A DNA stretch of 64,000 nt, from contig NZ_KE386573.1 in the NCBI RefSeq assembly GCF_000427685.1, positions 2,588,938-2,652,937 of the forward strand, given 5' to 3'. The notes beneath the pieces are model-generated. The model did not search any database and had not been told where the DNA came from. It worked only from the letters and a program-made list of their open reading frames with translations. Below are positions 3,223-30,972 of the stretch, in pieces. Source of the stretch: Haloplanus natans DSM 17983. GTDB lineage: Archaea > Halobacteriota > Halobacteria > Halobacteriales > Haloferacaceae. The first letter of the stretch is position 1; each line of letters starts with the position of its first letter. Both the position numbers and the translations under genes were made by a program.

Positions 3223-3252
3223 CACCGGGCTTTTCGCCTGACTGATGACGTA

Positions 3253-5410: not shown

Positions 5411-7372
5411 TTAGAGGTTGATTTCAGGAGCACTCGCACTGAGATACAGATAACCCATCACAACCAAGCCCAGTACCGTGACCAAGAGGCCTAACGGATC
5501 TGTGACCAATTGATAGACCGCTGTTGCGATCATTCCTCCACCGAGAAGGCCTATCACCAGTCTAACGTGGGAATCCTTTACCGGGATGAACTCTGTCGCA
5601 AGTCCGTCTACAATTTTACCGAGCTTGACACCGACCAAGGCGAACCCGCCGAGGAACGCGATGAACGTTACAAACACCTGCAACCAGTTCAACGCATTCG
5701 CGTCACCGCTCCAGATATTCTCGAAAGCATTCAGAGGATTACTCAGTTGAGTACCGGTGATTGGGAGAGTGAACCGTTTACCGAACAGGCCTCCACCAGA
5801 TCCACCACCGGTACCTTCCTCCCTACAATCGTATTGGATATCGTTGTTGACGAAAACCGCCTTCAACTCTCCCGTACACGTATCCTGCTTCTGAATCTTG
5901 AGACCGTCAGGACAACTGTAGATGACGTCGTTCCCGTTCTTCTGCTTCACAATCTCCTTGCCCTGAGTACATTCAGACTGTTGCGTAGCCTCCACCGAGA
6001 CACTGGTCGAAACCTCTCGACCACTCCCCGTATCCTCTACAGTGATACTGCATCGACCTGTATACGAGGCCTGCTGCATACTCGTCGAAGTGAACGTAAC
6101 CCGGAAACTGTAGGACGCAGTCTCACCGGGAGCAACCCTTTTCGTATTCTGAAGAGCATCCGCCTGGAAGTACTGACTACAGCTGCCAGCACGGGCTGAG
6201 AAACTGCCTTCCGCCCCGCCCACGTTCTTCACGTCGACAGAGATCCTGCCGCTACTGAGCTCACCGAAACTGGCACCACTCGATGAAACAATCTTCGGCT
6301 TCCCAACCGGCTTCGAGACAGTGATGTACCCGTTCTCACCGGCATCAACATAGACATTGAACTCTGGGTAAGCCAATCGACTATCCATATCGGCCTTCAA
6401 TGCTCCACTCTGGAAGCTGGAATCCAAGACCTCAGCATTCGCCAACGGAGACTCACTGTACCTCTTCTGAGCGTTCTCGGCCTTTCCGTTCAACAGGCCT
6501 TCAATATAGCTTTCAGAATAGTCTCCGGACTTCCACTTATCGAGAAGCCTGTTCCCGTCGTTCTTGATGTAGTTCCAGTAGTTATCGTACCGTTGCTCAC
6601 TGATCACTCTCCAACCGCCCTCATAGTTGTTACCGTGGATGGCAAGTTCATCGTCGACAAGCGGAGGATTCTGACCTGTATCCAAGTTACCCTGCCATTT
6701 CACCTTGGCATACCGGCCAAGATTGGAGACAACACCTGATCCACCATCCCCATTTGTTATTATAGCAGTCTGCGGATTCTTATCGCCTGCTTGCAGCCTC
6801 CACTCGGTTCTGAAGATTTCATCCGGGGAGCCGATATCAGCTACATCTCCGTAGTACCCGTTCTTCCGCAGGCAGAAGGCCTGGTAATTGTAACTTCCTG
6901 TCCAGTAATCGTACCAGCTCTTGGCAGCGGCCTCGACCTTACTGGTTCTATCTCCGATCGCTACTCCGCCCTCAGTGAAGTCAGCACAGTTTGAGGTAAC
7001 CCAGTTCCATAGCTGGTCTTTCGTATCGAATGTCTTCTTCATCCCCTCCCAGCCGTAGATCTTCTTCAAACCGGTCTCCTGGAGCGGGTAGCGAGCGTAG
7101 GTGTTCTGGTGAGAAACACTCAAAGTCAAGTCTTCTTCCGCAGTAGCTCCGGTCTTGCTCTCAATCTCACTGGCACCGAGATGGACGTTAATCTTGTCAG
7201 TCGCAAAGTTCGAGACATAACCAGCCTGAAGAACTTCTCCGTCGAAGAACTCGCTGTTGCTCTTATACGAGACAGTATCCACCGAAGTAGTATCTGCTGC
7301 CGCAAATGCAGTGAACATGAGAAGGAAGAATGCCGCTACTGAGGCCTTCCAACAATTACCCACTCGTTTCAC
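5411..7372 (-). CDS. fsx1: Candidate archaeal fusexin (Fsx1), HAP2/GCS1-like membrane fusion protein
   Basis: 653 residues from GTG 7372 (GTG 7363, just after AGGTGA, is equally possible). The signal peptide covers residues 1-26 (FAAA-DT). The ectodomain of about 535 residues is beta-rich with Cys at 129, 167, 398 and 441. Residues about 152-180 are aromatic- and Gly-rich (WYDYWTGSYNYQAFCL), a plausible fusion-loop region. Residues about 360-462 look like an Ig-type domain III. A compact four-Cys module follows (468, 487, 499, 516), then a Gly-rich linker and three C-terminal membrane helices (about 563-585, 603-622, 625-645). This order (beta ectodomain, Ig-like domain III, Cys-rich domain IV, several C-terminal helices) is that described for Fsx1, reported from haloarchaeal integrated elements with integrase and type IV secretion genes. 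The known family drives cell-cell fusion. Fusion activity here is inference; an unrelated surface adhesin with a pore-like tail is the main alternative. Confidence 0.72.
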   Translation of the reverse strand: MKRVGNCWKASVAAFFLLMFTAFAAADTTSVDTVSYKSNSEFFDGEVLQAGYVSNFATDKINVHLGASEIESKTGATAEEDLTLSVSHQNTYARYPLQETGLKKIYGWEGMKKTFDTKDQLWNWVTSNCADFTEGGVAIGDRTSKVEAAAKSWYDYWTGSYNYQAFCLRKNGYYGDVADIGSPDEIFRTEWRLQAGDKNPQTAIITNGDGGSGVVSNLGRYAKVKWQGNLDTGQNPPLVDDELAIHGNNYEGGWRVISEQRYDNYWNYIKNDGNRLLDKWKSGDYSESYIEGLLNGKAENAQKRYSESPLANAEVLDSSFQSGALKADMDSRLAYPEFNVYVDAGENGYITVSKPVGKPKIVSSSGASFGELSSGRISVDVKNVGGAEGSFSARAGSCSQYFQADALQNTKRVAPGETASYSFRVTFTSTSMQQASYTGRCSITVEDTGSGREVSTSVSVEATQQSECTQGKEIVKQKNGNDVIYSCPDGLKIQKQDTCTGELKAVFVNNDIQYDCREEGTGGGSGGGLFGKRFTLPITGTQLSNPLNAFENIWSGDANALNWLQVFVTFIAFLGGFALVGVKLGKIVDGLATEFIPVKDSHVRLVIGLLGGGMIATAVYQLVTDPLGLLVTVLGLVVMGYLYLSASAPEINL

Positions 7373-7652
7373 CTATGCAGTTGGCCTCCTGGTACAGAGT
7401 ACCGTTGATAATTTTGAACGTGACGTTGGAAGGAATTGAGACACCTCTCTCAGAGGCGTAGTTCCGGAGATCTTGTTCGGAGTCGAATGTCTGGTTATTT
7501 GGCTGGACCTTATGCCAGCATCCATCTCCTGTACTAACTGAACTCAGTGGACCGAGATTTAGGGCAGAAGCGATTGCTAACGCTGCAATCAACAGGAATG
7601 CTGCTCCTGCGAATACGTTGAGTGCTGTCGATCCTTTTCGTCTACTATTAAT
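7356..7652 (-). CDS. Small membrane-anchored extracellular protein, non-canonical start
   Basis: The first TTG (7592) gives 78 residues that begin inside a hydrophobic stretch. In frame upstream lie a basic segment (SRRKGS) and the rest of the hydrophobic segment, making a proper signal anchor, back to a TAA at 7656-7658. No ATG, GTG or TTG lies in that extension. An ATT at 7652, five bases after GGTGAT, is the best start, giving 98 residues. The exported part (about 50 residues) has two Cys and two NxT sequons. The gene overlaps the fusexin start by 17 bases, so the two are probably translationally coupled, and this small protein could be a fusexin partner or chaperone. Confidence 0.6.
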   Translation of the reverse strand: MNSRRKGSTALNVFAGAAFLLIAALAIASALNLGPLSSVSTGDGCWHKVQPNNQTFDSEQDLRNYASERGVSIPSNVTFKIINGTLYQEANCIGETSG

Positions 7653-7658
7653 TTGTTA

Positions 7659-7952
7659 TCACCCTGCTTTGATGTCAATCATTTTCTTGACCGCTACTAA
7701 ACCGAATCCGACAAAGATACCGTTCGTTATCGCTGCGAACAGCCGCTCAAAGCCTGTGCTTGGACTTGGAACTGCGAAAAAGTAGAATCCGGATGCAGTC
7801 AAGACCAATGCACCTGTAACGTACAGACTCGGAATGAATGGTACTCGAGTCGGGACGCGGTCGATGCTCAACAGTGCTGCTACTACAAATGAAGCTGTCA
7901 CCATTAACTCTGGATGCTGGAAAGCCAACTGTATGATCGTGTCGAGTACCAC
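7659..7952 (-). CDS. Small three-helix membrane protein
   Basis: 97 residues with hydrophobic segments at about 13-30, 41-61 and 70-90, separated by short loops. It starts with GTG 7952, one base after the stop of the zinc-ribbon gene upstream, and its own TGA forms part of the GGTGAT Shine-Dalgarno of the next gene. The compact spacing marks one operon leading into the candidate fusexin gene. No family recognised. It could be a holin-like, pilin-assembly or fusexin accessory protein, which the sequence does not decide. Confidence 0.6.
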   Translation of the reverse strand: MVLDTIIQLAFQHPELMVTASFVVAALLSIDRVPTRVPFIPSLYVTGALVLTASGFYFFAVPSPSTGFERLFAAITNGIFVGFGLVAVKKMIDIKAG

Positions 7953-7953
7953 T

Positions 7954-8121
7954 TCAGTCGTTCACCGGCCACGAGTCTATGACTGAGGTTTCTTCGCTGC
8001 CGCAGCCGTCCTCACGGCTTTTGTAGTGACGGTTCGGTGCGGAGCGATCCTCCTTTGCATCTGTTCTGTATGTTTCTCCGCAGCCTCTACACTGCACCAG
8101 GCATCGATACTTCTCAGCCAT
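7954..8121 (-). CDS. 55-residue zinc-ribbon-like protein
   Basis: The ATG at 8121 lies about 30 bases downstream of a TATA box, so the gene is leaderless and first in its operon. The protein starts MAEKYRCLVQCRGCGETY and has Cys at 7, 11, 14 and 40 plus His 32, enough for one zinc site. There is no hydrophobic segment. It ends in TGA at 7954-7956, one base before the GTG of the three-helix membrane protein. Small Cys-rich proteins of this kind are common in haloarchaea and their viruses, and the role is unknown. Confidence 0.6.
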   Translation of the reverse strand: MAEKYRCLVQCRGCGETYRTDAKEDRSAPNRHYKSREDGCGSEETSVIDSWPVND

Positions 8122-8152
8122 TTTATCTATATTAGAAATGATCGAATACTAC

Positions 8153-8160
8153 TTATAAAA
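8153..8160 (-). promoter_or_regulatory. TATA box of the zinc-ribbon/fusexin operon
   Basis: The minus strand reads TTTTATAAG about 30 bases before the ATG at 8121. It overlaps the end of the upstream ATPase gene region and would drive the zinc-ribbon, three-helix, signal-anchor and fusexin genes together. Confidence 0.5.
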
Positions 8161-8171
8161 CTGGCAGACGG

Positions 8172-9509
8172 CTACCCGGTGTGCCGAACCAGGGGACTGT
8201 AAAACTTCACTACAGGACAATCCTCGACGTCGTCGTGCTTCTCCGGGTTCACGTACAAGAACTCGTACTGATTCAGGTCGTTGATCTTCTTACGCCACTT
8301 CTCCTTATCTCCCTGCCCGTACAGGTTAGTCGAGTTCACTGCCTTCCGCCAATCCACCGGATTCAGGCCTTCACCGATGAACATGTGCGTCGTATCCCCC
8401 ACGAAATCGTAGGGATCTGAGCTCTGCGGATACGGGAGTTTGGATGGGCGCTGTGTACTGAGGATAGTTGCTATATCTGCTTGCCTTCCAGCGATATCGA
8501 GGATCTTCTGGAAGTATTTCTTGACAAGGTTGCCTGTGTCTCGACCAGCTACCTCGTGGAACTCATCCCCATATAATATGAATGGACCTTCGATATTCCC
8601 TCTGCGGATCTCCTTGATGAAGTTCCTCATCAGGACAGCGACGTAGAACTGGAACTTCTCCTCATCACCGTAGGTATAGTTGTCGTAGTGCTTGAGACTG
8701 AGAGAGATGACCGCCCGCTTCTCCTCAAGGTCGTGATTGTTCAACTCGTGTTCTCCCTTGTCTTCTTTCCAGACAAACTCGTCGCAGTCATGGCACTCCC
8801 AGCACTCGATATAGTTGAACGGGTTCTTTCTCAGATTAGAGGCGAGTATCTTACTGTTCTCCAAGCTGTTCAGGGTCCTTTTGATAGGGCCTTTGAGATT
8901 ATTCGTGTACTCGATCTCGACATCATCAAGCTTGGATTTGAGCGAGATGAAGTTCTCGTCCTCGATGCTGAGATCTCCGAGCAAGTTGTCGAAGACCTGT
9001 TCCTGTGGTTCACTGTTGAAGTCGAGAAGAAACATCAGATCGGATTTAGTAATGTCCTCAAAACCGAGTGTGAACTGCTCGATGTACGATGGTTTGCCGT
9101 TCCGGTAGTCGTCTACAAGGAACTTTGGCTGGAACAGTTTTCGAGGTACACGGTGAGGTTCTTCACCGTCTATCAGGCCCATTGTTTCGATCATCTGCTT
9201 TGAGGCACCGCCTGCATAGGAGATCGACTGGAAGTCGTTCTTGACATCCGAGAAATGAACCGGTGTCCATCCATCATCGTAAGCTGTGGAGACAATCCTT
9301 TTCCCGGCAACCGTCTTTCCACGGCCTGTAGGAGCTACAAGCAGTATCCTCGTTGTATCCGTCAAAGAGATATTGACCGTGTCTCCAGATTCAACTTCGT
9401 AGGCGATGGGGAGACTGCCGTTGTAGTCGACGTCGATCTCTTCCTCTTCCTGACTGTACTTCCGGTACTTCGGGTCTCCTGCCTCAATCGCGTGCTCAAA
9501 TAGTCCGAC
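8172..9509 (-). CDS. HerA/FtsK-like P-loop ATPase, non-canonical start
   Basis: The ATPase has Walker A APTGRGKT and Walker B FILYGDEFHEV, with SKLPYPQSS-type sensor sequence after it. The middle region holds a Cys/His group (CWECHDCDE...HELNNH) that looks like an inserted zinc finger. The first TTG (9365) sits only nine residues before the P-loop beta strand. About 48 further residues of convincing coding sequence lie upstream in frame (EHAIEAGDPKYRKYSQ), back to the TGA of the preceding gene. That stretch has no ATG, GTG or TTG. A GTC at 9509, five bases after GGTGAT, fits the start pattern seen elsewhere in this element. It should be a DNA or protein translocation motor, working with the two-helix protein encoded just upstream. 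Confidence 0.8.
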   Translation of the reverse strand, partial: VGLFEHAIEAGDPKYRKYSQEEEEIDVDYNGSLPIAYEVESGDTVNISLTDTTRILLVAPTGRGKTVAGKRIVSTAYDDGWTPVHFSDVKNDFQSISYAGGASKQMIETMGLIDGEEPHRVPRKLFQPKFLVDDYRNGKPSYIEQFTLGFEDITKSDLMFLLDFNSEPQEQVFDNLLGDLSIEDENFISLKSKLDDVEIEYTNNLKGPIKRTLNSLENSKILASNLRKNPFNYIECWECHDCDEFVWKEDKGEHELNNHDLEEKRAVISLSLKHYDNYTYGDEEKFQFYVAVLMRNFIKEIRRGNIEGPFILYGDEFHEVAGRDTGNLVKKYFQKILDIAGRQADIATILSTQRPSKLPYPQSSDPYDFVGDTTHMFIGEGLNPVDWRKAVNSTNLYGQGDKEKWRKKINDLNQYEFLYVNPEKHDDVEDCPVVKFYSPLVRHTG

Positions 9510-9515
9510 TGTGAA

Positions 9516-10109
9516 TCACCGGTCCTCAGTTGAGGCCTCTTCCTGAGGCGATCCTTGGTTAATCGTGATTTTGTTTCCTCTCCCATCTCTCCGCTTCCCG
9601 GTGACGCCTTCTGCCTGCAGCCAGCTGTACTTTCCTTTGAACGGGTTGATCCTGCCTTCGGGGTCGTGGATATCGCCGCTGTACTTCCTGATCTGATTGT
9701 CGGAGAGATCGTAAATGTACGCGAGTATTTCACGCTTCTTCGTATTTCGAGGCCTTCCGATGATCCCGTACATCAAGTGCTTCTCACCGTCCACTCTCAC
9801 CCACCTTGAGTCCGTGTGGAAGTCACGGTTAGCATCGTCCGTTGTATCCAAGTTCAGAGGACGGTATGCCAAGGCCTTCTGCACTTTCTTGTTGAGCTTC
9901 TCCGGTGCTTCCACTGGCTTGACTTTCGCTGTCTTCCGTTCAGAATCGAACGCGAAGGCATCCTGATCCCAGTTATAGTAAGCTACTGCTCCTCCGATTA
10001 TCGTTGACAGTCCGAAGACCCAGGTCCAAGGAATCAGGCTTGTATAGAAATTCCCGAGCAGAAATACGAAGACTGCTGCCGAGTAGATTTTGGCGTCTTT
10101 CAGTCTAAT
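9516..10109 (-). CDS. Two-helix membrane protein upstream of the ATPase, non-canonical start
   Basis: From GTG 9914 the frame gives a 132-residue soluble domain. In frame upstream are two membrane helices (KIYSAAVFVFLLGNFYTS and WTWVFGLSTIIGGAVAYY) with no canonical start before them. An ATT at 10109, six bases after AGGTGAT, is the best candidate and gives 197 residues. Two N-terminal helices followed by a soluble domain, encoded immediately before a motor ATPase, resemble the VirB3/PrgI-like inner-membrane subunit that precedes VirB4. That comparison is by layout only. The stop codon TGA lies inside the GGTGAT ahead of the ATPase gene. Confidence 0.6.
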   Translation of the reverse strand: MRLKDAKIYSAAVFVFLLGNFYTSLIPWTWVFGLSTIIGGAVAYYNWDQDAFAFDSERKTAKVKPVEAPEKLNKKVQKALAYRPLNLDTTDDANRDFHTDSRWVRVDGEKHLMYGIIGRPRNTKKREILAYIYDLSDNQIRKYSGDIHDPEGRINPFKGKYSWLQAEGVTGKRRDGRGNKITINQGSPQEEASTEDR

Positions 10110-10111
10110 AG

Positions 10112-10291
10112 CTATATCACCTGCGGTAAGACAACTAAGACTGAGTACCCTGCTCCTGCACCGAGCAGTGTAAAGACGAAGTAGCCTACGAGAGGGCCTC
10201 CATGCTTGAGGCCTCTTATGAGACCTGCTACTTGCACTATCAGGAAGACTGCAAATGCGATCAGGAGATGGGTCTGAGCAATTTCGATCAT
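10112..10291 (-). CDS. 59-residue two-helix membrane protein
   Basis: The ATG at 10291 overlaps the TGA of the upstream gene (ATGA). The protein has two membrane helices (about residues 8-25 and 33-57) around a short basic loop (RGLKHGG), and ends QVI-stop. Its last codons (CAG GTG ATA TAG) contain the AGGTGAT that would serve the next gene. Size and layout resemble phage holins or small secretion-channel subunits, with no sequence family recognised. Confidence 0.6.
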   Translation of the reverse strand: MIEIAQTHLLIAFAVFLIVQVAGLIRGLKHGGPLVGYFVFTLLGAGAGYSVLVVLPQVI

Positions 10292-10686
10292 AGTACTTTC
10301 TTTATGAACTTGTTTTCGAAGATCGATTCTATTGGAGGGTTTCCGCCGAATTTGTAGACGTTGACTCTTCCTTCCCCGTATTCCTGGTAGATCTCGTGGA
10401 CTAACCGCTCTTGGTCGATCACTGGCTCACCATTATCTACGGAGTAAATCTGTATCGGAGCTTCCTCTACCGGTCCCTTGTACTTCGTAACGTCCTTGAT
10501 GTAGTTTCCCTGGATCGGTTCCGTACCTGCCTCATACTCCGCTACTTGGTATCGATGATTCTGGAAGCTGCTGTTATCTGTATAATCAACAGTAGTTGTC
10601 CTTTTTACTAGTTTCTCAGGCAGGTCGTCGTATCGGACGTCTTCCTGTGCCTTGTTGTCCCGCAGCTTTCGGATTATCAGAGCCAG
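10288..10686 (-). CDS. 132-residue soluble protein, probable CTG start
   Basis: An open frame ending at a TGA that overlaps the next ATG contains clear coding sequence (RYDDLPEKLVKRTTT, GEGRVNVYKFGGNPP) but no ATG, GTG or TTG near its beginning. The in-frame stop TGA at 10693-10695 is itself part of GGTGAT, and a CTG at 10686 follows it by exactly five bases. That start gives an N-terminus LALIIRKLRDN, with a plausible short hydrophobic beginning. No family recognised. Confidence 0.55.
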   Translation of the reverse strand: MALIIRKLRDNKAQEDVRYDDLPEKLVKRTTTVDYTDNSSFQNHRYQVAEYEAGTEPIQGNYIKDVTKYKGPVEEAPIQIYSVDNGEPVIDQERLVHEIYQEYGEGRVNVYKFGGNPPIESIFENKFIKKVL

Positions 10687-10709
10687 ACTACATCACCGGA
10701 TTAGAAGAG

Positions 10710-11648
10710 CTATACGCCCTCTATCTGCTGTCCGAAGTTTTCGAACCCTTTCTTCTGGATGTTCGTGACTTGGCCCTTGATAATGTGCTCCTGCTTGTCA
10801 AGCTCGTCCGCATACCACTCCAAGTCCTGTCCCGGGTTTTCGTCGACCAGTTCATAGAGATCTCCCTGAAGACCGTTGAGGTCGCTCAATTCTTCCTCAG
10901 AATCCACGGCTTGATCCTGAGACTCGGATGTGTTCGCCGGAGTTGTGGAGACCTGTTCTTCTTCAGTATCTATCGAACCTGACGTTGAGACTGCTGCTGG
11001 CTCAGGCTGAGGTGAGCTCATTTCTTGGGCAGCGGATTCGAGAGCCTCGGCAGCCTCCTTCATATTCTCAGAAAGCTCAATGTGGTTCTCACTCAACTCC
11101 TTCTCAAGATCCTCAACTGAGTCAGTTACTTCGTCGACCACTTCCCGGCTCATGTTCTGGAACTGGTTTTGACTCTCACTTACGTACTCCTTCGTCATCT
11201 CCATAACCTTCGACTCATCCTGTCTCATCTGCTGCAGATCAATAGCATCGCTCAGCAAGTCATCCTGATCCTTGTAGACCTTCAACGCCAACGCGAGGCG
11301 GGAAACCAGCTGCCTGTAATCACGGATGGCCTTCCTCATCTTCTTCGCATCCTCCGCGTCTACAGCATTCCTTCTCAGATTTTCCTCAAACGAATCTTCC
11401 TTCCAACGGCTCTCGACATCTTCAGCTTTCTCTAAAGCTAAGTCCGCTTTCGTCGAGGCTGAATCCTCAATCTGACTGGCGTGGCTTCGGCGTCGATCTA
11501 GGATATCCCGCAGATTGTACTTGTTGACGCTTCCCTGGTCGAGTTCGCTCTCAGTCTTCGACTTCAGATCTTTCGCAGCCTTATCCAGATCCTGATTTTC
11601 AAGTATCTTATCTGTAATCTCGTCGTCTTTGTCGTCAAATAATCCCAC
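10710..11648 (-). CDS. Acidic coiled-coil protein
   Basis: 312 residues, very rich in Glu, Asp, Lys and Ser, with long heptad regions (about residues 60-130 and 150-205) and a low-complexity Pro/Ser/Thr/Glu linker (about 205-250). There is no signal peptide or membrane helix. It starts at GTG 11648 behind AAGGTGG. It lies between a zinc-ribbon coiled-coil protein and the small soluble/membrane proteins, so it may be a scaffold of the envelope or secretion assembly. No family recognised. Confidence 0.65.
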   Translation of the reverse strand: MGLFDDKDDEITDKILENQDLDKAAKDLKSKTESELDQGSVNKYNLRDILDRRRSHASQIEDSASTKADLALEKAEDVESRWKEDSFEENLRRNAVDAEDAKKMRKAIRDYRQLVSRLALALKVYKDQDDLLSDAIDLQQMRQDESKVMEMTKEYVSESQNQFQNMSREVVDEVTDSVEDLEKELSENHIELSENMKEAAEALESAAQEMSSPQPEPAAVSTSGSIDTEEEQVSTTPANTSESQDQAVDSEEELSDLNGLQGDLYELVDENPGQDLEWYADELDKQEHIIKGQVTNIQKKGFENFGQQIEGV

Positions 11649-11663
11649 TTAGGAAACCACCTT

Positions 11664-12224
11664 CTAGATAGCGTCTTCAAGGGCTACGTCGCTGCAACTT
11701 GGACAGTAGCCGTCGTTGTCCTTCCACCGAGATTTTGGATTCGTGCTACCGCAGTCATCGCATTCGATGCCGCTGGAGCTCGAAGATTTGGCAGCTTCCT
11801 TCTTCTCCCATTCCTCTCGTTCCTCACGAAGATCGTCAGCTTTCTTCTCTGCTGTTCCTTTCTCCTTCTCTAAGCCATCTATCTCTTCTTGGAGACCTGC
11901 TATCTTCTCTTCCAGATCCTCGTTCATCTGATAGCCGATAGTCCGCTTGAATTTTTCCTCGGGAAACTCAGGGATATCTTTCGTAGGCCTGAGCACCATA
12001 ACCCGGAACCCGGCATCAGTCCGGTATTCCTCGATATTTTCCTCCTCGTCAAGAGGGTGTGGGAAGGCCTTCGGCCGCGAGTAGATCTCTGAGCCTTTGG
12101 TCCCCATAGGCCTTATTTCAGGTTTTACCCGTTCTGGGTATTCTTCCGGCCTTTCCATTTCACCGGTGTGGCCGCCGAAGTATTCGCCAAAAAAGAGGTC
12201 GACTACGAATGGTTCTTTTGCCAT
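11664..12224 (-). CDS. Coiled-coil protein with C-terminal zinc ribbon
   Basis: 186 residues. Residues 1-90 form a globular N-terminal part. Residues about 95-150 are a Glu/Lys-rich coiled coil (GLQEEIDGLEKEKG). A Ser run follows, then a zinc ribbon with two CxxC pairs (CDDCGS...YCPSCSD) near the C-terminus. The ATG at 12224 lies 10-12 bases after the stop of the surface glycoprotein gene, whose TGA is part of GGTGACT. No enzymatic motif. It is probably a structural or adaptor protein in the same operon. Confidence 0.65.
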   Translation of the reverse strand: MAKEPFVVDLFFGEYFGGHTGEMERPEEYPERVKPEIRPMGTKGSEIYSRPKAFPHPLDEEENIEEYRTDAGFRVMVLRPTKDIPEFPEEKFKRTIGYQMNEDLEEKIAGLQEEIDGLEKEKGTAEKKADDLREEREEWEKKEAAKSSSSSGIECDDCGSTNPKSRWKDNDGYCPSCSDVALEDAI

Positions 12225-12236
12225 AGTATAATTTAG

Positions 12237-13934
12237 TCACCCGAAGATACCGTCCTCATCATCGTCTCCTCCGAGGAAATCTGTTGAAAGTATATCTGTG
12301 GTTTTGAGACGTGTGTAGTAGAACGATGGTCCGACCCTGCGCTCCCAGAGGAATGCTCCCCAGCCGAACAATCCGAATACGAGGAAGACCTTGCCCCAGA
12401 AAGCGTTGTCCGCAGCTTTCTGTTTCAGCCTCTCTTTCTCTTCTGTACGGAACTCCTCTGCTTCTTCCTGAACCTGTTCCGGAATGAAGACTCGAGCACT
12501 CTGCTTGAGATTAGAGCCAATCGGCACCGTATCTGCTGAGATAAAGTATGAGACCATCCACCCCGATTTTTCGCAGTTATCGCTGTTTACCGGACTGTAA
12601 GTAACATTCCGGTCGAACACTGTGATCACCTCTTTCTTTGGAACCTTGCACTGCAGGTATTGACCGTTGAACCGGACATCATCAATCGAGACGTGTTGCT
12701 TGACGCCTTCGAAGCTGAGCCGTCCATTGAATCTTTCCGGAGTGTCACCGTACAGTTTGAGGTAGACTGGTGTAGGGCCTTCAACCGTCACTGAGTGGTT
12801 CTCGTTTCTCAGGAACTTCTCGCCGTTCCGTGTCTTGATCGCAAGGTTCCACGTTTCGTTGGGGCTTTGCAGTGGCTGGCTGAAGGATTCGAGCCGGATC
12901 TGGACCTGTGTCTCTCTGTCTATCTCTCCGATCTTCTCGACGATCTCTGACTCTACCCGGTAGTTTTGAAGCGAGATTGAGTTGTTGACTTGGACGGCGT
13001 CGATTTTCTCGACTGTGTACTTCGAGGTGAAGTTGACTCTGTTTCCTGCGCCGTCGATGACGTAGCCGTCAACGTAGAATGTTCCCGGTGTGTCTGAGGG
13101 AGGTTTTGCGGTCCACTTCTGCGTGTTTTCGATTTTTGTGAAGGACAGTGTCTCTACCGTCTCGTTCACCGTCTTGGTCGTGTTCCCGGATTGCACCGTG
13201 GTCTCGTTAAGGATCTCTGCTTTGACGGTGGATATGTTGAGGTTGTCTGAGGCCTTGACCGTGAAGTTCTCCGGGAACGTAGCGGTGAAACCCGGTGTCT
13301 CCACGTCCTGAATGACTGGTGTAACGTTGTCCTTGAACTGGAGACGGACAGGTACCTGCTGAGAATTGTTGTAGGATCCGTTGAGAACCAGGGTTCCGTT
13401 GTACAGTCCGTATTCTGTTGTTTCACGCACGTTGTACTGCAGTACGATTGAGGAGTTGATTTCAGGGTAGACGTTGACCTCGTCGGTTACTTGGAGGTAC
13501 TCCGAGACGTTCCCGGTGAGCGAGATATCTATTGTAGTATTTGTGTTCCCGGTCAGAGAAACTCTCTGTCCAGTGAGTTTGCCAGAAGTCCCGACATTGA
13601 CCGTATCCTCGATCCTGTCTGGGGTCAGAGTCCAGTCGACATAGGGCAGAACTTGGACTGTGAAATTGTGGCTGTAATTGTTCTCCAGTTCGACTCTTCC
13701 ATCGTAGGCCCCTACTGGGATTGAGAGAGGGATATCCGCTACGATGGAATTGTTCTCAGTTCGGACCGGGAAGGAGAATGTATTGGTGGAGATATTTGAT
13801 CCGTTGATCGTACTGTTTGTGGCGAGTACAGTCTTGTTCGTAGGGTTTGCTTGAATCTGGTCGGTATGTGTTGCTGCTGCAAGGCCTGAAAGCAGTAGAA
13901 GTAGAGATGCAGCTATTGTCGTCTTGTAGTTCAT
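12237..13934 (-). CDS. Large surface glycoprotein with C-terminal membrane helix
   Basis: 565 residues. The signal peptide spans residues 1-22 (LLLLLSGLAAA-TH). The ectodomain of about 490 residues is built of repeated beta-sandwich-like segments and carries an unusually high number of NxS/T sequons (for example NGSNISTN, NYSHNFT, NTNTT), as in haloarchaeal S-layer or adhesin proteins. A membrane helix lies at about 520-540 (GKVFLVFGLFGWGAFLW), followed by a short cytoplasmic tail with an acidic end (GGDDDEDGIFG). It starts at ATG 13934, overlapping the stop of the AbrB-like gene. Likely a surface or adhesion protein of the element. With the candidate fusexin it could bring cell envelopes together, which is inference. 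Confidence 0.75.
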   Translation of the reverse strand: MNYKTTIAASLLLLLSGLAAATHTDQIQANPTNKTVLATNSTINGSNISTNTFSFPVRTENNSIVADIPLSIPVGAYDGRVELENNYSHNFTVQVLPYVDWTLTPDRIEDTVNVGTSGKLTGQRVSLTGNTNTTIDISLTGNVSEYLQVTDEVNVYPEINSSIVLQYNVRETTEYGLYNGTLVLNGSYNNSQQVPVRLQFKDNVTPVIQDVETPGFTATFPENFTVKASDNLNISTVKAEILNETTVQSGNTTKTVNETVETLSFTKIENTQKWTAKPPSDTPGTFYVDGYVIDGAGNRVNFTSKYTVEKIDAVQVNNSISLQNYRVESEIVEKIGEIDRETQVQIRLESFSQPLQSPNETWNLAIKTRNGEKFLRNENHSVTVEGPTPVYLKLYGDTPERFNGRLSFEGVKQHVSIDDVRFNGQYLQCKVPKKEVITVFDRNVTYSPVNSDNCEKSGWMVSYFISADTVPIGSNLKQSARVFIPEQVQEEAEEFRTEEKERLKQKAADNAFWGKVFLVFGLFGWGAFLWERRVGPSFYYTRLKTTDILSTDFLGGDDDEDGIFG

Positions 13935-14119
13935 TCGAAGTCATCCTCGTTAGGTACATCGATTAGCTTTTTCAGGTCGTCCGTGCGGATGATTGCTATT
14001 TCTTCTCCCTTCTCAAAGTCGGAGTCAGCTGGTACTGTGACAAGTTTTTGATTATTCTGGCTTCTCTCCCAGATCTCCATTCTTTCTATTTCAAAAGGGA
14101 GCAGGAAGCCATCCGGCAT
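13931..14119 (-). CDS. AbrB/SpoVT-like small protein
   Basis: 62 residues from the ATG at 14119 (a TTG at 14140 is also open). The second half reads KLVTVPADSDFEKGEE, matching the swapped-hairpin AbrB pattern (T-x-P...F-x-x-G-x-x). These proteins are DNA-binding repressors or antitoxins. The ATG lies about 30 bases past a TATA-like box, so the gene is probably leaderless and first in the operon containing the surface glycoprotein. Autoregulation of the envelope operon would be a natural role, by inference. Confidence 0.55.
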   Translation of the reverse strand: MPDGFLLPFEIERMEIWERSQNNQKLVTVPADSDFEKGEEIAIIRTDDLKKLIDVPNEDDFE

Positions 14120-14146
14120 TACTATTAGATTAGTTGTCAATTAGTG

Positions 14147-14155
14147 CTTTTAAAC
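14147..14155 (-). promoter_or_regulatory. TATA box of the AbrB-like/surface glycoprotein operon
   Basis: The minus strand reads GTTTAAAAG about 30 bases before the ATG at 14119. It lies at the very end of the upstream membrane protein gene. Confidence 0.45.
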
Positions 14156-14157
14156 AA

Positions 14158-14757
14158 CTATGTTGTTGAGTTCGTCAGGTTAGTAGCATTCCCTGGATCC
14201 ATCAACGGATTCAATCTCTCAAACTGAACCAGCTCCAAGACGTTCGTTAAGGCCTTCAGCGTCCCAACATCCGGAAGCCAGCCTGTTACCGCGAAGACGA
14301 TAGCGAAGTAATTCATACCGATCAGCCCCCAAACAAGAAGCGGAGAAACATCCGGGTCAAACCACGCAGCTACGATGTATCCTGCTTTGAAGTACCAGAG
14401 AACATGGGCAGCAGCGCCTACAGCCGTGATTAGCAACGTGAGATACTCCCATCCATGAGCCATCGGAACCTGCTGCAGAACCGAGATCACAGTCTGAATA
14501 CTCTCCCCAAGCTGCAACGCATACGAGACAACAACAGGTTTCACAGCCCCCGTTTGGATCGCTTCTCGAAGAGCATCCTTGTGTTCCCAGACAAGAACAG
14601 AGGCAAGCGTAAGCCAACTCCAGAAACCCATATTCGAAGAAAGCAACGTCCTAACCCGTGCAAAGGACTTGACGACAGCCAACTTCCCGACCTTGAGGAC
14701 CGTGAATAGGCCGTTCAGTAGCTTGTACAGAAGATAGACGATGCTTTTGGCTGCGAT
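14158..14757 (-). CDS. Polytopic membrane protein, probable ATC start
   Basis: The first TTG (14682) gives 174 residues. In frame upstream are 25 more natural residues (KSIVYLLYKLLNGLFT), back to the TGA of the zinc-ribbon gene, with no canonical start. An ATC at 14757, exactly five bases after AGGTGAC, fits the recurring pattern and gives 199 residues. There are four to five hydrophobic segments (about 5-25, 45-60, 95-118, 125-150), and the C-terminus has NxT/S sequons (GNATNLTNSTT), so the tail may be external. No family recognised. Confidence 0.6.
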   Translation of the reverse strand: MAAKSIVYLLYKLLNGLFTVLKVGKLAVVKSFARVRTLLSSNMGFWSWLTLASVLVWEHKDALREAIQTGAVKPVVVSYALQLGESIQTVISVLQQVPMAHGWEYLTLLITAVGAAAHVLWYFKAGYIVAAWFDPDVSPLLVWGLIGMNYFAIVFAVTGWLPDVGTLKALTNVLELVQFERLNPLMDPGNATNLTNSTT

Positions 14758-14763
14758 ACAGAG

Positions 14764-14898
14764 TCACCTGTAGATATAGCTGCAGACCGTACACTGGATG
14801 CGCTGGTTGCTGGACTGAAAATCTTCCATGGAGAGTCGGACGTCTTCATCACAGATCTTGCAGGGTCGGTAGATTATAGGATTTTGGTGAGGTATCAC
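14764..14898 (-). CDS. 44-residue zinc-ribbon protein
   Basis: It starts at GTG 14898 behind GTGAGG and ends with TGA inside AGGTGAC. Two CxxC pairs (CKIC at 13-16 and CTVC at 36-39) make a complete zinc ribbon. It begins a minus-strand operon and diverges from the coiled-coil gene at 14920. It is in the same frame as the following membrane protein, so occasional TGA read-through would give a fusion. Function unknown. Confidence 0.55.
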   Translation of the reverse strand: MIPHQNPIIYRPCKICDEDVRLSMEDFQSSNQRIQCTVCSYIYR

Positions 14899-14919
14899 AA
14901 TAATATTCCTCACGTATAA

Positions 14920-18168: not shown

Positions 18169-19338
18169 ATGAAGAGAATACTACTCGCAGGCCTCGCAGT
18201 CATCGCCTGTATAGGCCTACTGTCAGCTCCGGCAGCAGCAAATCACCAAGAAACTACGGCGACGCCAAGTAACGGAAGCGGAGACCAAAGCGGAGAAGAC
18301 GATGAGCCGATCATCGATTTCAGCGGAGTCGTCGAGGCAATCAACGACCTGATTGAGGACTTCGAGAAGTTCACCGGCAGCTGGGACCAAACTCTGAAAG
18401 ACATCCTAATCGCCGTCCTCTTCCACCCGTTCAAACTCCTCGCCCAGCAGCTTCTGAACGCTCTCTCAACCATCCTGATGCACACGCCGGACGTCCACCC
18501 GAACCCTGCCATCGAACAAGTTCACAGCAGAGTCCTGCTCGTGACCTACCTGCTGTCAGGCCTCGGACTTACCGCGGCAGGCCTACTGTACATCACCGGG
18601 CCTCTGCTCGGAGTCTCGTACAACGAGGTTCGGATGATCATTCCGCGGCTTCTCGCCGCGTTGATCTTCTCCACCGTTTCCCTTCCGTTGCTTCAGTACG
18701 CTGTCGAACTGAGCAACGCCTTAGTCTACGCATTTTCCCCGGACCAATTGTGGATGAGTTTGACTCAGTTGGCAGGCCTGAGCACCGGCTTAGTGCTTGC
18801 TTGGGTTGTCAACGCTGCGTTGCTGCTCGTGGTCGTCGTGATGTTCATCATCAGGAACGTGTACCTGATGTTCGTTGCCGCAATCTCACCGCTGTTGGCC
18901 TTGGCCTGGAGTGTGCCGAAGGCGAAGCGGTACGCAGATTCGTTCATCGCTGGCTGGTGGACCGCACTGGCGATGGCACCCTTGGATATGCTCGTATTGA
19001 AGTTCAGCTTCGCAATGCTGCAGGGCAACGGAGCAAGCATCACTGCAAGCATCTCGAACTGGATCCTCGGTGTGGGAGCGTTCTCACTTCTAATCCTTGT
19101 CCCATACCAGCTCTACGGAGCTTCTCAAGCAGCTATCGGCCAGGCCTATGTCGTCAGTCAGGGAATCAAGAGCAGAGCGAAACAGGCCTACCGCATCCAA
19201 CAAGGCCGGGGAACGGGAGGAGAAACGGACTTCGACCTCTCAAATGATGAAGCTCGGCGTCTGAAGTCGTACAGACGGAAGAAGCGCCGGCAATCCTCTG
19301 ACAACGGCTTCCGCAGCAATTGGGGAGGTGGCGACTGA
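18169..19338 (+). CDS. VirB6/TrbL-like polytopic channel protein
   Basis: 389 residues. A signal peptide (ending APAAA-NH) precedes an acidic stretch (GDQSGEDDEPII) and six to seven membrane helices (about 80-330), ending in a basic cytoplasmic tail (SYRRKKRRQ). TrbL/VirB6 proteins form the inner-membrane DNA or protein channel of type IV secretion. The position between a pilin-like gene and a VirB4-like ATPase supports this. Its TGA overlaps the ATG of the ATPase gene. Confidence 0.7.
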   Translation: MKRILLAGLAVIACIGLLSAPAAANHQETTATPSNGSGDQSGEDDEPIIDFSGVVEAINDLIEDFEKFTGSWDQTLKDILIAVLFHPFKLLAQQLLNALSTILMHTPDVHPNPAIEQVHSRVLLVTYLLSGLGLTAAGLLYITGPLLGVSYNEVRMIIPRLLAALIFSTVSLPLLQYAVELSNALVYAFSPDQLWMSLTQLAGLSTGLVLAWVVNAALLLVVVVMFIIRNVYLMFVAAISPLLALAWSVPKAKRYADSFIAGWWTALAMAPLDMLVLKFSFAMLQGNGASITASISNWILGVGAFSLLILVPYQLYGASQAAIGQAYVVSQGIKSRAKQAYRIQQGRGTGGETDFDLSNDEARRLKSYRRKKRRQSSDNGFRSNWGGGD

Positions 19339-21848
19339 TGACTGAGAAGGTTCGGATGCCGGCGGACCTTGACCAAGTCACCTTGAAGCTGCTCGGAAAA
19401 CTGGACGCCAAAGATCTGGCAAGGCTCGGAATCCCCTCCGGGTCAGCCTTCAGTTACCTGTACCAAATCCCGAGTCCCTCCCTCACCGCATTCGCCGGCG
19501 CAGGAGCTGCAGTAGGTATCGGTGCGACCTGGGCACTCTGGAAGCCCTACGGACGCAGCCTCGACCAGAATCTGTACCAAGCCGCTCGATGGACACTGCA
19601 GAACAGAAATGGAGTTGAGACGCCGGAGATCGAGGACAACGTCCTGAAGACGGGCAGTTCCGTGGCCGCATTGATCGAAGTAGATCCCGTCAATATGGAG
19701 CTGAAATCCGGCGGCGAGAAAGCAGCACTCCACAAACTGTACCAAGAACTGCTGCAATCTGTCGACTACCCGGTCACGGTCTACAGCACCCAGCAGCCGT
19801 TCAGTTTCGCCCAGTACTTCGAGAACCTCGAAGACGGCGACGAACTCCAAGACGACTACCGAAGCCACTGCGAAGACTTAGTGGAAGACGGGAACAGCCG
19901 GACACGGCACTACCTCGAAGTTCGCGTCGACGACGGCGACCGCAGCGAACTGTCGAACCGTGTCGGAGAGATCCTGGAACACCTGACTTCGGGAGGCCTC
20001 ACCACGTACAGAGTAACCGAAGTCGACGACGTCGAAGACAGCCCCGAAATCAATCCCAGGTACATCCAACATCCCGAATCAGAGGAAAGAAGCTGTAGCA
20101 AGACACTGTACATTTCGGGCTACCCCGGAGACGTAGACTTCTCTTGGATTTCGCAGATCCTCCAAGTCGAGGGACTCATCGACGTCACTCAAACCATCTA
20201 TCCGAAGACCTCGGCAGATACTGTCTCCAAGCTGCAGAAACTGGAGAACAAGGCAGAAGCCGAGAACCAGTCCCTCGTCAGGAAAGGGTACGGCAGCAGC
20301 AGAAAACTGGAACGATTGCTCGACGACGTCGACTGGTTCCAGAACCTGCTGGCCGACCAAGAGGACCAACCTGTCAGGTACGGTTGCTACGTTACCGCCT
20401 ACGGGGAGAGCAAGAAGGAATGCGAAGCTGCGGTGAGGAAAGTAGAGAACCGGTTGAAGACCCTCGGTATCAACTACCGAGGTACTGCTCTTCGTACGGA
20501 TCAGGCCTACCAGTCAACGACGCCAGGGCTCAGAGACAAGCTGGAAGAGCGCCAACTGATGCCTGCGGGAAGCGCTGCTTCCGGCTTCCCATTCACACAG
20601 GCCTCGACCGTCGACGAGAACGGTGTCCTGTTCGGAGTCGATCAATCGACCGAGGCACCGGTTATCCTTGACCGGTTCAAGTGGAACGCGGGTCACGCAG
20701 TACTCGCTGGAGCTACTGGATCCGGGAAGAGCTTCCACTCCAAGCTATTGCTCCTTCGCTCAGCACAGGTCTACGACAACCTCGAGGTCAAGATCATCGA
20801 TCCGAAACCAGAGTACGGAGATCTGGAGGACTTCCTCGAAGAATACGCCTCAGTCACCCGGTTCGGACTTGAGGCGTCCATCCAGGATGACACTGAAGAA
20901 CTGATTCAGAGTGTGGAAGAGGCCTACAGCCAGGCTCAGGAAAGCGATGCGAAGACCATCGTCGTCATCGACGAAGCACACCGCCTGCTGCAGAATCAGG
21001 AAGGTGCTTCGGTCCTATCCACGCTGGTTCGTGAGGCTCGGTCGTCGAACACGGCAGTACAGCTGATCACGCAGACAATCAGTGACTTCTACCGGACGGA
21101 AGATGGAGAGGACATCCTGAAGAACATCCCCTGCAAGGTGCTGTTCGCACACGAAGACGCGGATGACAGGCCTGCACAGGCCTTCCAACTCTCCAACGTC
21201 GCAGAAACCCGGCTGTACAACTTGGCAAAAGGCGACCAAGACTCTACGGATTACAGCCAGGCAATCCTCAAAGTCAGCAACCAGTTCGAGTCCCGTGTCA
21301 ATGTGGAAGCCTCGGACGTTGAGGCTTCGATCATCGAACACGGAGAAATCCCCGAACAAACCAGAGAAAATACGGGCAGCATTGACCTCAGCTACAACGA
21401 GACAACCAGCGACGCCGATAATTCAAGCTTGGCTGAGAAAGCGAAGGCCTACATCAAGAATGTCCGTGAGAAGATCGAGAAGCTGTCACTGCCGAACTTC
21501 AATCTTCCAAAGCCTGGTCTACCCAGTTTCTCCCTGAGCAACAGCAGCTATCTCCGTTCCAGTAACGCTCGTAGCTGGAATAATCCCCTGCCGGACATTG
21601 AGGACGAAATCCCTTACCGCGGATACCTGAAGAAGGCCTGCTTTGCAACTGGGTTGTTCTTCGGGACGGGTCTCTTCGGTGCAATCCTTGTCAGTAGTGG
21701 ACGCGTCATCGTTGACACCCTCCAGCAGTTGGTCGGCTTCGGTTCAATGGTTCAAGGAGTACTGGAAGTAGTCTGCCCGCTGATCTTGCTGGGGGCTCTA
21801 TTCGGCCTCTCCGACCCCTACACTGCGATTCACGGGGATGATGCCTAA
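19338..21848 (+). CDS. virB4: VirB4-like type IV secretion ATPase
   Basis: 836 residues from ATG 19338, overlapping the previous stop and preceded by GGAGGTGG. Walker A GATGSGKS is at about residue 457 and Walker B TIVVIDEAH at about 540, followed by a VirB4-type Q-containing motif (TAVQLITQTISDF). The N-terminal 440 residues match the VirB4/TraC layout. Two hydrophobic segments near the N-terminus are weak, but the C-terminal 70 residues hold two clear membrane helices, unusual for VirB4. It powers pilus assembly and substrate transfer at the cytoplasmic membrane. Genes before and after are a VirB6-like channel and a TraD-like coupling protein. Confidence 0.85.
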   Translation: MTEKVRMPADLDQVTLKLLGKLDAKDLARLGIPSGSAFSYLYQIPSPSLTAFAGAGAAVGIGATWALWKPYGRSLDQNLYQAARWTLQNRNGVETPEIEDNVLKTGSSVAALIEVDPVNMELKSGGEKAALHKLYQELLQSVDYPVTVYSTQQPFSFAQYFENLEDGDELQDDYRSHCEDLVEDGNSRTRHYLEVRVDDGDRSELSNRVGEILEHLTSGGLTTYRVTEVDDVEDSPEINPRYIQHPESEERSCSKTLYISGYPGDVDFSWISQILQVEGLIDVTQTIYPKTSADTVSKLQKLENKAEAENQSLVRKGYGSSRKLERLLDDVDWFQNLLADQEDQPVRYGCYVTAYGESKKECEAAVRKVENRLKTLGINYRGTALRTDQAYQSTTPGLRDKLEERQLMPAGSAASGFPFTQASTVDENGVLFGVDQSTEAPVILDRFKWNAGHAVLAGATGSGKSFHSKLLLLRSAQVYDNLEVKIIDPKPEYGDLEDFLEEYASVTRFGLEASIQDDTEELIQSVEEAYSQAQESDAKTIVVIDEAHRLLQNQEGASVLSTLVREARSSNTAVQLITQTISDFYRTEDGEDILKNIPCKVLFAHEDADDRPAQAFQLSNVAETRLYNLAKGDQDSTDYSQAILKVSNQFESRVNVEASDVEASIIEHGEIPEQTRENTGSIDLSYNETTSDADNSSLAEKAKAYIKNVREKIEKLSLPNFNLPKPGLPSFSLSNSSYLRSSNARSWNNPLPDIEDEIPYRGYLKKACFATGLFFGTGLFGAILVSSGRVIVDTLQQLVGFGSMVQGVLEVVCPLILLGALFGLSDPYTAIHGDDA

Positions 21849-22825
21849 TGAGTCTTCGAAACCGTATCTACCAAGACCACATCACAGTCACGGAGGAGCA
21901 AGCACAGAGACTGAGCTACAGCACTGGGACGTGGTACGACATCGAGGTCAGACCTCCGAAGAACAAGGACGTCCCTACAACGCTGCGAGAGTTCGCCGCC
22001 GGAATCAGAGAACTACAGACAAAGTGGCTGAAAATTCGGAACGCCTCACCGACCATCGCGTTCGAAATCCGGAGGCATACTCCTGACAAGCTCACGTTCC
22101 AGTTCTCCACACCCACAAAGAGACTGGAGCGAAAAGTCCGGACACAGCTCTCAAATCAAGTTCCAGGAGTGGAGTTCGGAGACGGTGTCGAAGGCCTACC
22201 AGTAGGAGAAGAATCCACAGCAGGAGGAGGCTTCCTCACCGCAGGAAGACGGGACTGGTACCCATTCAGGACGGACTTCGACGAGCCACCAGTCAACTCG
22301 CTGGTCTCGACGTTCCACCGCCACGCGATGCAGAACACCAGTTTCGTCGTCCAAGTCCTGTTCAAGCCGGTTGTCGGAGAACGAGTCCAACGCTGGCTGT
22401 GGAAGAAACAGGCCTACAAACAGATCCAGTATCTGAAGAAGGAGAAAGAACAGCTCTGGGGAAGTCGCTCTCCAACGAAACGGGAGAAACGGCAGGCCGA
22501 CAGCATCGAAGCCAAGGCCGGGAACAGCAGGTTCCACACCACGATACGGTTCGCCGTCATCGGTGCAGACGAATACACTAAGAGCCGAGTCAAGGAACTC
22601 GCAGGAGCATACAACACCTACGAGAACCCGGAAACCGGCCAGTACCTCGACACCGTCACCGTTGAGGCCTTGAGAGAGCAGAGGATCTTCGACTTCCTCC
22701 AAGCAGTAGCCGACAGAAGCTACAGTGGTTGGGGCCGACGTTTCCAATCCTCACTTGACGAGCTTGCTGCATTCGTATCGCTTCCCAGCAACAGCCGCGA
22801 GAACATCCAATTCGCCCAGCCATGA
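21848..22825 (+). CDS. Transfer-module accessory protein, N-terminal half of a split HerA/TraD-type protein
   Basis: 325 residues. It overlaps the VirB4-like gene (TAATG) and the coupling ATPase gene (ATGA), so the three are translationally coupled. It is soluble with alternating alpha/beta and a Lys/Arg-rich stretch at about 195-225. No P-loop is visible. In archaeal and Gram-positive systems the N-terminal domain of TraD-type proteins can be of this type, so this may be a separately encoded partner of the coupling protein. I infer that from position and size only. Confidence 0.55.
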   Translation: MSLRNRIYQDHITVTEEQAQRLSYSTGTWYDIEVRPPKNKDVPTTLREFAAGIRELQTKWLKIRNASPTIAFEIRRHTPDKLTFQFSTPTKRLERKVRTQLSNQVPGVEFGDGVEGLPVGEESTAGGGFLTAGRRDWYPFRTDFDEPPVNSLVSTFHRHAMQNTSFVVQVLFKPVVGERVQRWLWKKQAYKQIQYLKKEKEQLWGSRSPTKREKRQADSIEAKAGNSRFHTTIRFAVIGADEYTKSRVKELAGAYNTYENPETGQYLDTVTVEALREQRIFDFLQAVADRSYSGWGRRFQSSLDELAAFVSLPSNSRENIQFAQP

Positions 22826-29782: not shown

Positions 29783-30220
29783 GTGGACACTTCACTAAGT
29801 AAGAAGCAGAAGTTGCTTTTATTGAAAGGGGCAAAGAATAACGGCATTATAACAAAGAGATTAGCTGAAGAGATCTATTCCAGCTGGAGTCAAGGTAAAA
29901 GTGCTATAGAAAAGCTGGAGGCCTTAGATTTCATTGAGAGATCTCATCCTGGAGTATGGAGGGTAAAGAAAGCTATAGATGACGTCAAGTCATCGTTCTC
30001 GCTTACAGAACAGAATGAACTATTGCTCATGAAGGCTGCTAAGAACGATGGTGTACTTAATTGGGAAATGGCTTCAAATCTTTATTCGAGTAAGAGATCA
30101 GCTAAGTCTGCTATTCAAACTCTTGTTCATCTGGGATATGTAGAGAACACGGTTCCAGGACAGTGGAAGGTCAAAAATGTAACCGATATAGTAGCTCAGG
30201 AGGTGAAAGAAGAGTCGTAG
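29783..30220 (+). CDS. Duplicated winged-helix protein
   Basis: 145 residues made of two related halves, each with a helix-turn-helix and wing ending in a W-containing strand (HPGVWRVKKA and VPGQWKVKNV), so an internal duplication. GTG 29783 follows AGGTGATC with five bases between GGTGAT and the start, the same geometry as the non-canonical starts in this element. It lies 10 bases after the mcm stop. Probably a DNA-binding partner of the MCM or an origin-binding protein. Confidence 0.6.
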   Translation: MDTSLSKKQKLLLLKGAKNNGIITKRLAEEIYSSWSQGKSAIEKLEALDFIERSHPGVWRVKKAIDDVKSSFSLTEQNELLLMKAAKNDGVLNWEMASNLYSSKRSAKSAIQTLVHLGYVENTVPGQWKVKNVTDIVAQEVKEES

Positions 30221-30856: not shown

Positions 30857-30972
30857 ACCTGGTCAAGTGGCTTGCAATGGATGTGCAGGAAACCGTATTG
30901 ATGAACACAGAGGCTTGGGAGATCCGGCCGCACAGTACTGAGAAGATCAGGTATCCACGGGTGGTGCCCTAA
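30853..30972 (+). CDS. 39-residue mini-ORF in an overlapping chain
   Basis: TTG 30853 overlaps the previous TGA, and TAA 30970-30972 overlaps an ATC that would start the next gene. The peptide begins MNLVKWLAMDVQETVL and ends in RYPRVVP. The head-to-tail overlaps on both sides suggest translation through the chain. Confidence 0.35.
   Translation: MNLVKWLAMDVQETVLMNTEAWEIRPHSTEKIRYPRVVP

Follow-up and report, generated by a model that had tools for sequence, protein, structure and literature searches.

Candidate starts in the window

The window analyzed here is a 64,000-nucleotide stretch of Haloplanus natans DSM 17983 (NZ_KE386573.1, our contig 7 or C7, positions 2588938-2652937 of a 3.8-Mb genome). 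It carries five minus-strand genes, within a genomic island of low guanine-plus-cytosine (GC) content, which appear to start at codons other than ATG, GTG, or TTG. None of the five has such a canonical codon in frame between the upstream in-frame stop and the candidate start, and the first one downstream follows after 20 (gene 7652), 48 (9509), 65 (10109), 88 (10686), and 25 (14757) codons, each gene being named by the coordinate of its candidate start. A Shine-Dalgarno motif precedes every one of these starts, by five bases (N5) at 7652, 9509, 10686, and 14757 and by six (N6) at 10109, exactly where an earlier sequence-only reading had placed them. The features are as follows (aa, amino acids; nt, nucleotides).

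7356..7652, minus strand: 98-aa protein, hydrophobic over a stretch at its N terminus, candidate start ATT 7652 (GGTGAT-N5-ATT)
7658..7663, minus strand: Shine-Dalgarno GGTGAT of 7652, with the TGA of the upstream gene inside and TAA directly after
8172..9509, minus strand: 445-aa P-loop ATPase, candidate start GTC 9509 (GGTGAT-N5-GTC)
9515..9520, minus strand: Shine-Dalgarno GGTGAT of 9509, containing the terminal TGA of the upstream gene
9516..10109, minus strand: 197-aa protein, candidate start ATT 10109 (GGTGAT-N6-ATT)
10116..10121, minus strand: Shine-Dalgarno GGTGAT of 10109, at N6
10288..10686, minus strand: 132-aa protein, candidate start CTG 10686 (GGTGAT-N5-CTG)
10692..10697, minus strand: Shine-Dalgarno GGTGAT of 10686; the stop of the upstream gene lies 23 nt ahead of the start
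14158..14757, minus strand: 199-aa membrane-type protein, candidate start ATC 14757 (GGTGAC-N5-ATC)
14763..14768, minus strand: Shine-Dalgarno GGTGAC of 14757, containing the terminal TGA of an upstream zinc-ribbon-like gene
29783..30220, plus strand: canonical comparison gene (GGTGAT-N5-GTG)
30972..31307, plus strand: sixth, weaker candidate, a 111-aa open reading frame (ORF) with candidate start ATC 30972 (GGTGGT-N6)

The gene at 29783 uses the same spacing with a canonical start, as the sequence-only reading had also pointed out. In the ORF at 30972, coding-like codons precede the first canonical codon (TTG 31008), but no homologue was found in the set examined, which makes it the weaker candidate. 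The ATPase has a weak match to phrog_2666, a terminase large subunit; its structure prediction was poor (mean predicted local distance difference test score, pLDDT, 43.7) and was not used.

The proposed match of GGTGAT to the anti-Shine-Dalgarno sequence holds for this host. The 3' end of its 16S rRNA reads TGCGGCTGGATCACCTCCT, complementary to GGTGAT, and the motif pairs fully because the rRNA terminates in GGATCACCTCCT. With GGTGAY at spacing 5, the TGA of the motif always falls in frame, three codons before the start; an in-motif TGA at N5 is a by-product of this geometry and alone is no sign of reinitiation. The upstream genes of 7652, 9509, and 14757 terminate at the in-motif TGA, each leaving a stop-to-start gap of 6 nt, and those of 10109 and 10686 end in TAG, 2 and 23 nt before the start, respectively.

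Conservation and spacing of the start column

A syntenic element lies on scaffold 12 (56,511 bases) of Haloferax sp. Q22, with about 40-60% protein identity. All five window genes align with their Q22 homologues from residue 1, where the codons (window/Q22) are ATT/ATT (7652, 55% identity), GTC/ATC (ATPase 9509, 51%), ATT/GTG (10109), CTG/ATT (10686), and ATC/ATC (14757, 47%). A near-cognate codon is thus retained at the same residue in four of the five genes. The Q22 homologue of 7652 is a 97-codon frame without any ATG, GTG, or TTG, and that of 14757 starts with ATC after GGTGAG-N5. The most clear-cut example is the Q22 ATPase (L005, contig 4), where GGAGGTG at a normalized spacing of 5 is followed by TGATC, in which the upstream stop overlaps the ATC start, an ATC version of the classic TGATG overlap. 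Canonical starts also occur in other genomes: the homologue of 10686 in a more distant element (G143) has ATG in the same column, and the ATPase of Halovivax KZCA124 starts with ATG, as read from the sequence.

The segments that precede the first canonical codon (231 codons pooled, compared with Q22) differ at a proportion of 0.77 of synonymous sites (pS) and 0.39 of nonsynonymous sites (pN), giving a pN/pS of 0.51; shuffling yielded a mean of 0.94 and a minimum of 0.79. These skipped segments are coding, which confirms what had been read from the window and is visible in the substitution pattern itself. Since synonymous sites are saturated and amino acids conserved in the segments, the near-cognate codons have persisted; a single mutation would convert ATT or ATC to ATG, yet the near-cognate state was kept. 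The alignment of homologues that had been proposed as a check came out the same way, as the extensions are conserved, ATG stands at the start column elsewhere, and no homologue begins at an internal GTG or TTG. Outside the window, two more island genes have homologues with ATT, ATC, or ATA (ATH) in the same column, namely ATT/ATC with Q22 (58% identity) and ATA/ATC with G004 (57% identity).

Close relatives of the operon are few. A search of 391 genomes with the ATPase matched, besides its own genome, only Q22 (G155) and G143, and an ATPase profile added no other strong match, whether in 170 genomes of the family or in 392 of the order. Among genome contigs the single ATPase sequence had no match and the profile found Q22 and Halovivax KZCA124; viral contigs, phages, and plasmids matched neither the ATPase nor the other genes queried. 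The search was therefore widened through the coupling protein of the carrier element (see below), which led to 14 further elements of the family. None of the 14 carries the operon of the window, but in most of them a divergent operon shows the same start pattern. No match with the motif was seen in the operon of three (G200, G258, G347), and none was convincing in G313 and G335. One of the ORFs, in G112, runs for 116 codons without any canonical codon.

Three protein families allowed the start column to be followed more widely. DUF932 (Pfam PF06067), the best conserved of the cases, was represented by 31 loci, 25 from matches in the 392 order genomes and six more from the coupling-protein elements; the loci outside the conjugative set may or may not be mobile, and the regions fetched around these may include ordinary chromosome. 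ATT or ATC is the start in 24 of the 31, all with a Shine-Dalgarno motif at N5 or N6 (23 GGTG, one GAGGTC). In six, ATG stands in the same column or one codon away from it, and these lack a motif at N5-6 (none recognizable, or at N7, N9, or N10); one is ambiguous between CTG and GTG. On a midpoint-rooted tree the ATG label requires three changes, and ATH is scattered over the whole tree. The island itself has a DUF932 gene about 36 kb left of the window (C7:2552208; L117, L138), with ATC after GGTGAT-N6.

The C24 family (17 loci) has 10 ATH, six ATG, and one GTG start, with ATG in G126 and G341 against ATT or ATC. In the C21 family, 20 of 24 rows were usable (the second G147 row, G209, the 64-aa G293 row, and G335 were left out as not true members or for an unreadable start), and 19 of these have ATH, eight of them ATA, the remaining one being GTG. 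In a further family, both ORFs of 500 codons begin with ATA. The third base of the ATH start is family-specific, and AUU, AUA, and AUC each occupy the start column in several homologues. In four elements (G370, G028, G383, G147; L129, L130, L131, L133), DUF932 and C24 use ATG and the next gene, C21, keeps GGTGAT-N5-ATT. Such mixed start types within single elements indicate that the start type is set gene by gene and not by the host. As read from these alignments, the start pattern is far wider than the five window genes, and its codons are mainly ATT, ATC, and ATA.

Genome-wide counts of GGTGAYN5ATG and ATY were unusable, being dominated by coding codons, and an offset test and an ORF test were used instead. 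The offset test took each GGTGAY on either strand of 36 element regions (654,689 bases, 906 sites) and counted all codons at all offsets after it. The ATH count at N5 was 68, and offsets outside 5 and 6 averaged 34.4 (Poisson P about 3e-7); the 46 occurrences at offset 6 are not above those at offsets 10 and 12, so that offset 5 is the single strong peak. By codon, the observed numbers at N5 over the same-phase means were ATT 24/10, ATC 23/9.8, ATA 21/8.2, TTG 19/8.5, and ATG 16/10. In 425,500 bases of the host's own chromosome, ATH stood at N5 15 times, without excess; this control has about 68% GC and the elements about 50%, and the comparison of offsets within the elements is independent of GC.

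The ORF test required at least 60 codons, no canonical start upstream, and none within the first eight codons. In the 36 low-GC element regions it found 35 ATH cases at N5, 14 at N6, and 0-5 at other offsets; the other NTN codons and ACG had no peak at N5. Host DNA gave four at N5, none at N6, and 0-3 elsewhere, with no clear peak. In the host's own genome, the island of about 100 kb contains 14 candidates with related motifs and the flanking DNA (about 103 kb) four; for at least one of the 14 (2557441) homologues fall short of its start. The coding-score scans used here overlook short hydrophobic genes. A strong Shine-Dalgarno at the proper spacing is thus in excess over other spacings, and the offset test rules out a chance origin of the pattern. 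What these comparisons establish, at the level of the genomes, is that the segments are coding, where the start column lies, that it is conserved, and that it is coupled to a Shine-Dalgarno at fixed spacing.

The carrier element

Base composition steps from about 50% GC before window position ~38,500 to the 65-72% GC of the chromosome after it. The low-GC part of the window is the right end of an island of roughly 100 kb (C7 about 2524000-2626000), whose left boundary is given only by the GC step near C7:2524000; it may be a single element or two in tandem. Its cargo includes a VirB4-type ATPase, a TraD-type coupling protein, a pilin-like gene, MCM, and an integrase. The main marker genes in the window are listed below.

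19320..21848, plus strand: VirB4-type ATPase of the conjugation module (AAA_10, 1.2e-16)
22822..24744, plus strand: TraD/VirD4-type coupling protein (TraG-D_C, TrwB_AAD_bind), 93% identical in Q22
36416..37402, minus strand: tyrosine integrase close to the island's right edge (Phage_integrase, 1.3e-20), with the GC step beyond

With conjugation ATPases, coupling protein, and integrase together in one low-GC island, its gene content identifies it as an integrative conjugative-type element in a haloarchaeal chromosome. The low-GC part also holds a family-2 glycosyltransferase (1627-3225, minus strand), an M48-type peptidase with a long N-terminal part (15499-17148, minus strand), and a DUF6610 protein (34652-35500, minus strand). 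TATA-like A/T-rich stretches were noted by eye at 8121-8170, 14119-14160, and 14898-14940. They precede small genes that all have canonical starts (8121, ATG; 14119, ATG; 14898, GTG) and, by eye, resemble promoters of transcripts with short leaders or none.

Proposed initiation at AUH codons and its alternatives

The explanation that we consider probable is Shine-Dalgarno-driven initiation at near-cognate, mainly AUH (AUU, AUC, or AUA), codons in a broad class of low-GC haloarchaeal elements, which appear to be integrative and largely of the conjugative type. A strong Shine-Dalgarno (GGUGAY or GGUGG) would pair with the 3' end of 16S rRNA 5-6 nt before AUU, AUC, or AUA and so hold the 30S subunit with the near-cognate codon in the P site, where initiation would proceed. 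The initiator Met-tRNA most likely tolerates the third-base mismatch at AUH, and the GTC and CTG of the window may be rarer variants of the same start type. Terminating ribosomes probably feed the site where an upstream stop lies within a few bases, as in four of the five window genes, but the start would not depend on this supply. The arrangement most likely serves to fix translation at a low, tunable level, as a throttle. Initiation at these codons, the tRNA used, and the throttle are what we infer from the conserved arrangement. The central proposal of the sequence-only reading, that a strong Shine-Dalgarno sets near-cognate starts, agrees with the homologues, which have ATG, GTG, or a different ATH codon in the start column.

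Several observations weigh against this explanation. The Q22 homologue of 10686, read as starting with ATT, has a possible GTG four codons upstream. The enrichment is confined to ATH and excludes the GTC and CTG of the window, each of which is backed by one or two homologues. Coupling to the motif is not strict, as the C24 homologues of G341 and G383 have ATG with GGTGA at N5-6. Related elements are not independent, and the DUF932 contrast (24:0 against 0:6) comes down to about three tree changes. Haloferax volcanii is reported not to use the Shine-Dalgarno in de novo initiation (PMC6728339), which fits poorly with a start of the same family that the Shine-Dalgarno would drive. About 11 host genes have coding-like sequence before the first canonical codon without GGTGAY-N5/6-ATH. 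These host-type genes (among them L045, L046, L047, L050, L052, L053, L058, L059, L062, and window about 57200) are possibly frameshifts, pseudogenes, or other unusual starts.

Strict termination-reinitiation, in which a just-terminated ribosome held by the Shine-Dalgarno restarts with relaxed codon choice, is unlikely as a general account. It has been demonstrated in H. volcanii with a variable Shine-Dalgarno contribution (PMC6728339). Four window starts, whose upstream stops lie at distances of 6, 2, 6, and 6 nt, and the TGATC overlap of Q22 fit it. The suggested reinitiation after the in-motif TGA is supported in part. The short distance is absent, however, at 10686, which sits 23 nt from the upstream stop, and at 30 of the 31 DUF932 genes. 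In nine DUF932 loci (one cut by a contig end) no coding ORF on the same strand terminates in the 400 nt ahead of the start, the gaps are 66-325 nt in 21 others, and one locus alone has a gap of 23 nt. As DUF932 genes mostly lack a close upstream gene, reinitiation is not a general requirement. Stop read-through, by which the upstream and downstream genes would form one protein through UGA, had been suggested by the continuous frames at 9516-9518 and 14764-14766, and for 14757 the frames are continuous in Q22 too. This continuity follows from GGTGAY with spacing 5, and the frame relation is not conserved between the window and Q22, where the gaps in four homologues are -1, 3, 22, and 7; at 10686 and 10109, as well as in the Q22 counterparts of 9509 and 7652, the gap is not divisible by three. 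At N6 the motif contains no in-frame stop, 7652 has a tandem TGA TAA, the pair of codons that follows the TGA at 14757 lacks conservation, and homologues have ATG at the same column. Read-through was therefore rejected and is extremely improbable.

A gene finder restricted to ATG, GTG, and TTG would call the internal GTG or TTG codons as the true starts and leave the conserved upstream segments as something else. The upstream segments evolve as protein, though, the 97-codon ORF of Q22 and the 116-codon ORF of G112 offer no canonical codon at all, and the ATG or GTG of homologues coincides with the ATH column and not with the internal sites, on which grounds internal starts were rejected as very improbable. 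The near confinement of the class to the three isoleucine codons, with a family-specific third base, would suit initiation by an isoleucyl tRNA or an altered initiator tRNA, with proteins that begin with isoleucine. We regard this as quite improbable, given the six DUF932 homologues with ATG and the occurrence of GTC and CTG. An element-borne tRNA was rejected, as the window has no tRNA gene and 16 scanned element loci have one tRNA-Tyr only. Sequencing error was also rejected, the same state being found in independently sequenced elements.

Beyond Shine-Dalgarno-driven AUH initiation as such, a further reading is conceivable but rather doubtful. In it, GGUGAY-N5/6-AUH would be an element-specific second start signal set against the leaderless or non-Shine-Dalgarno AUG and GUG starts of the host. 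Element genes would in that case be translated only under relaxed start-codon fidelity, depending for example on the aIF1 level, the growth state, or an element factor. In Sulfolobus, aIF1 is reported to select against start codons that are non-canonical (PMC8211752), so it would be the natural candidate for control. If this reading were true, it would amount to a translational switch for mobile DNA.

In Escherichia coli, infC has an AUU start. For pcnB the same start is named in a paper title cited in PMC13009471, and the AUH starts described here resemble both in using AUU as what looks like a deliberately weak start, theirs being single chromosomal genes. E. coli infC is autoregulated via IF3, whose role is taken in archaea by the unrelated aIF1 (PMC7531240). 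A close parallel comes from Staphylococcus aureus, where cvfC1, ccpN, and infC have conserved AUU or AUA starts with an extended Shine-Dalgarno and about 10% of AUG reporter output in poor medium (PMC13009471). Conservation of the start codon between homologues, a strong Shine-Dalgarno, and proper spacing are common to both systems. S. aureus, however, is a bacterium with four genomic sites in that account; here, the genes are archaeal, number dozens in mobile elements, and are known from sequence, AUC is common too, and several genes per operon often share the feature.

The termination-reinitiation pairs of H. volcanii, described for ATGA and TGATG overlaps (PMC6728339), are similar in the very short stop-start distance of four of the five window genes and in the involvement of the Shine-Dalgarno, but any restart here would be at a codon other than AUG, and some starts have an upstream gene that is far away or none at all. 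For Halobacterium salinarum, GUC has been reported as a possible start (Srinivasan et al. 2006, as cited in PMC4574771); that mRNA is leaderless, whereas GTC 9509 is Shine-Dalgarno-led in a class that is mostly AUH. Pairing of weak GUG and UUG starts with a stronger Shine-Dalgarno is a described trend (PMC5622118). No report of such AUH starts in archaea was found in the open-access literature, a search that left subscription journals largely outside.

Bacteria are known to use AUU, AUC, and AUA starts in rare, exceptional cases. In the archaeal mobile elements described here such starts recur as a conserved signal, and this in organisms that are reported not to use the Shine-Dalgarno for de novo initiation. 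If the explanation is true, dozens of element genes are shortened or missed by annotation pipelines, some of them ORFs without any canonical codon, and haloarchaea would be a test bed for how Shine-Dalgarno strength is balanced against start-codon match and for fidelity of the aIF1 type. The pattern suggests that these elements set their expression through the start codon.

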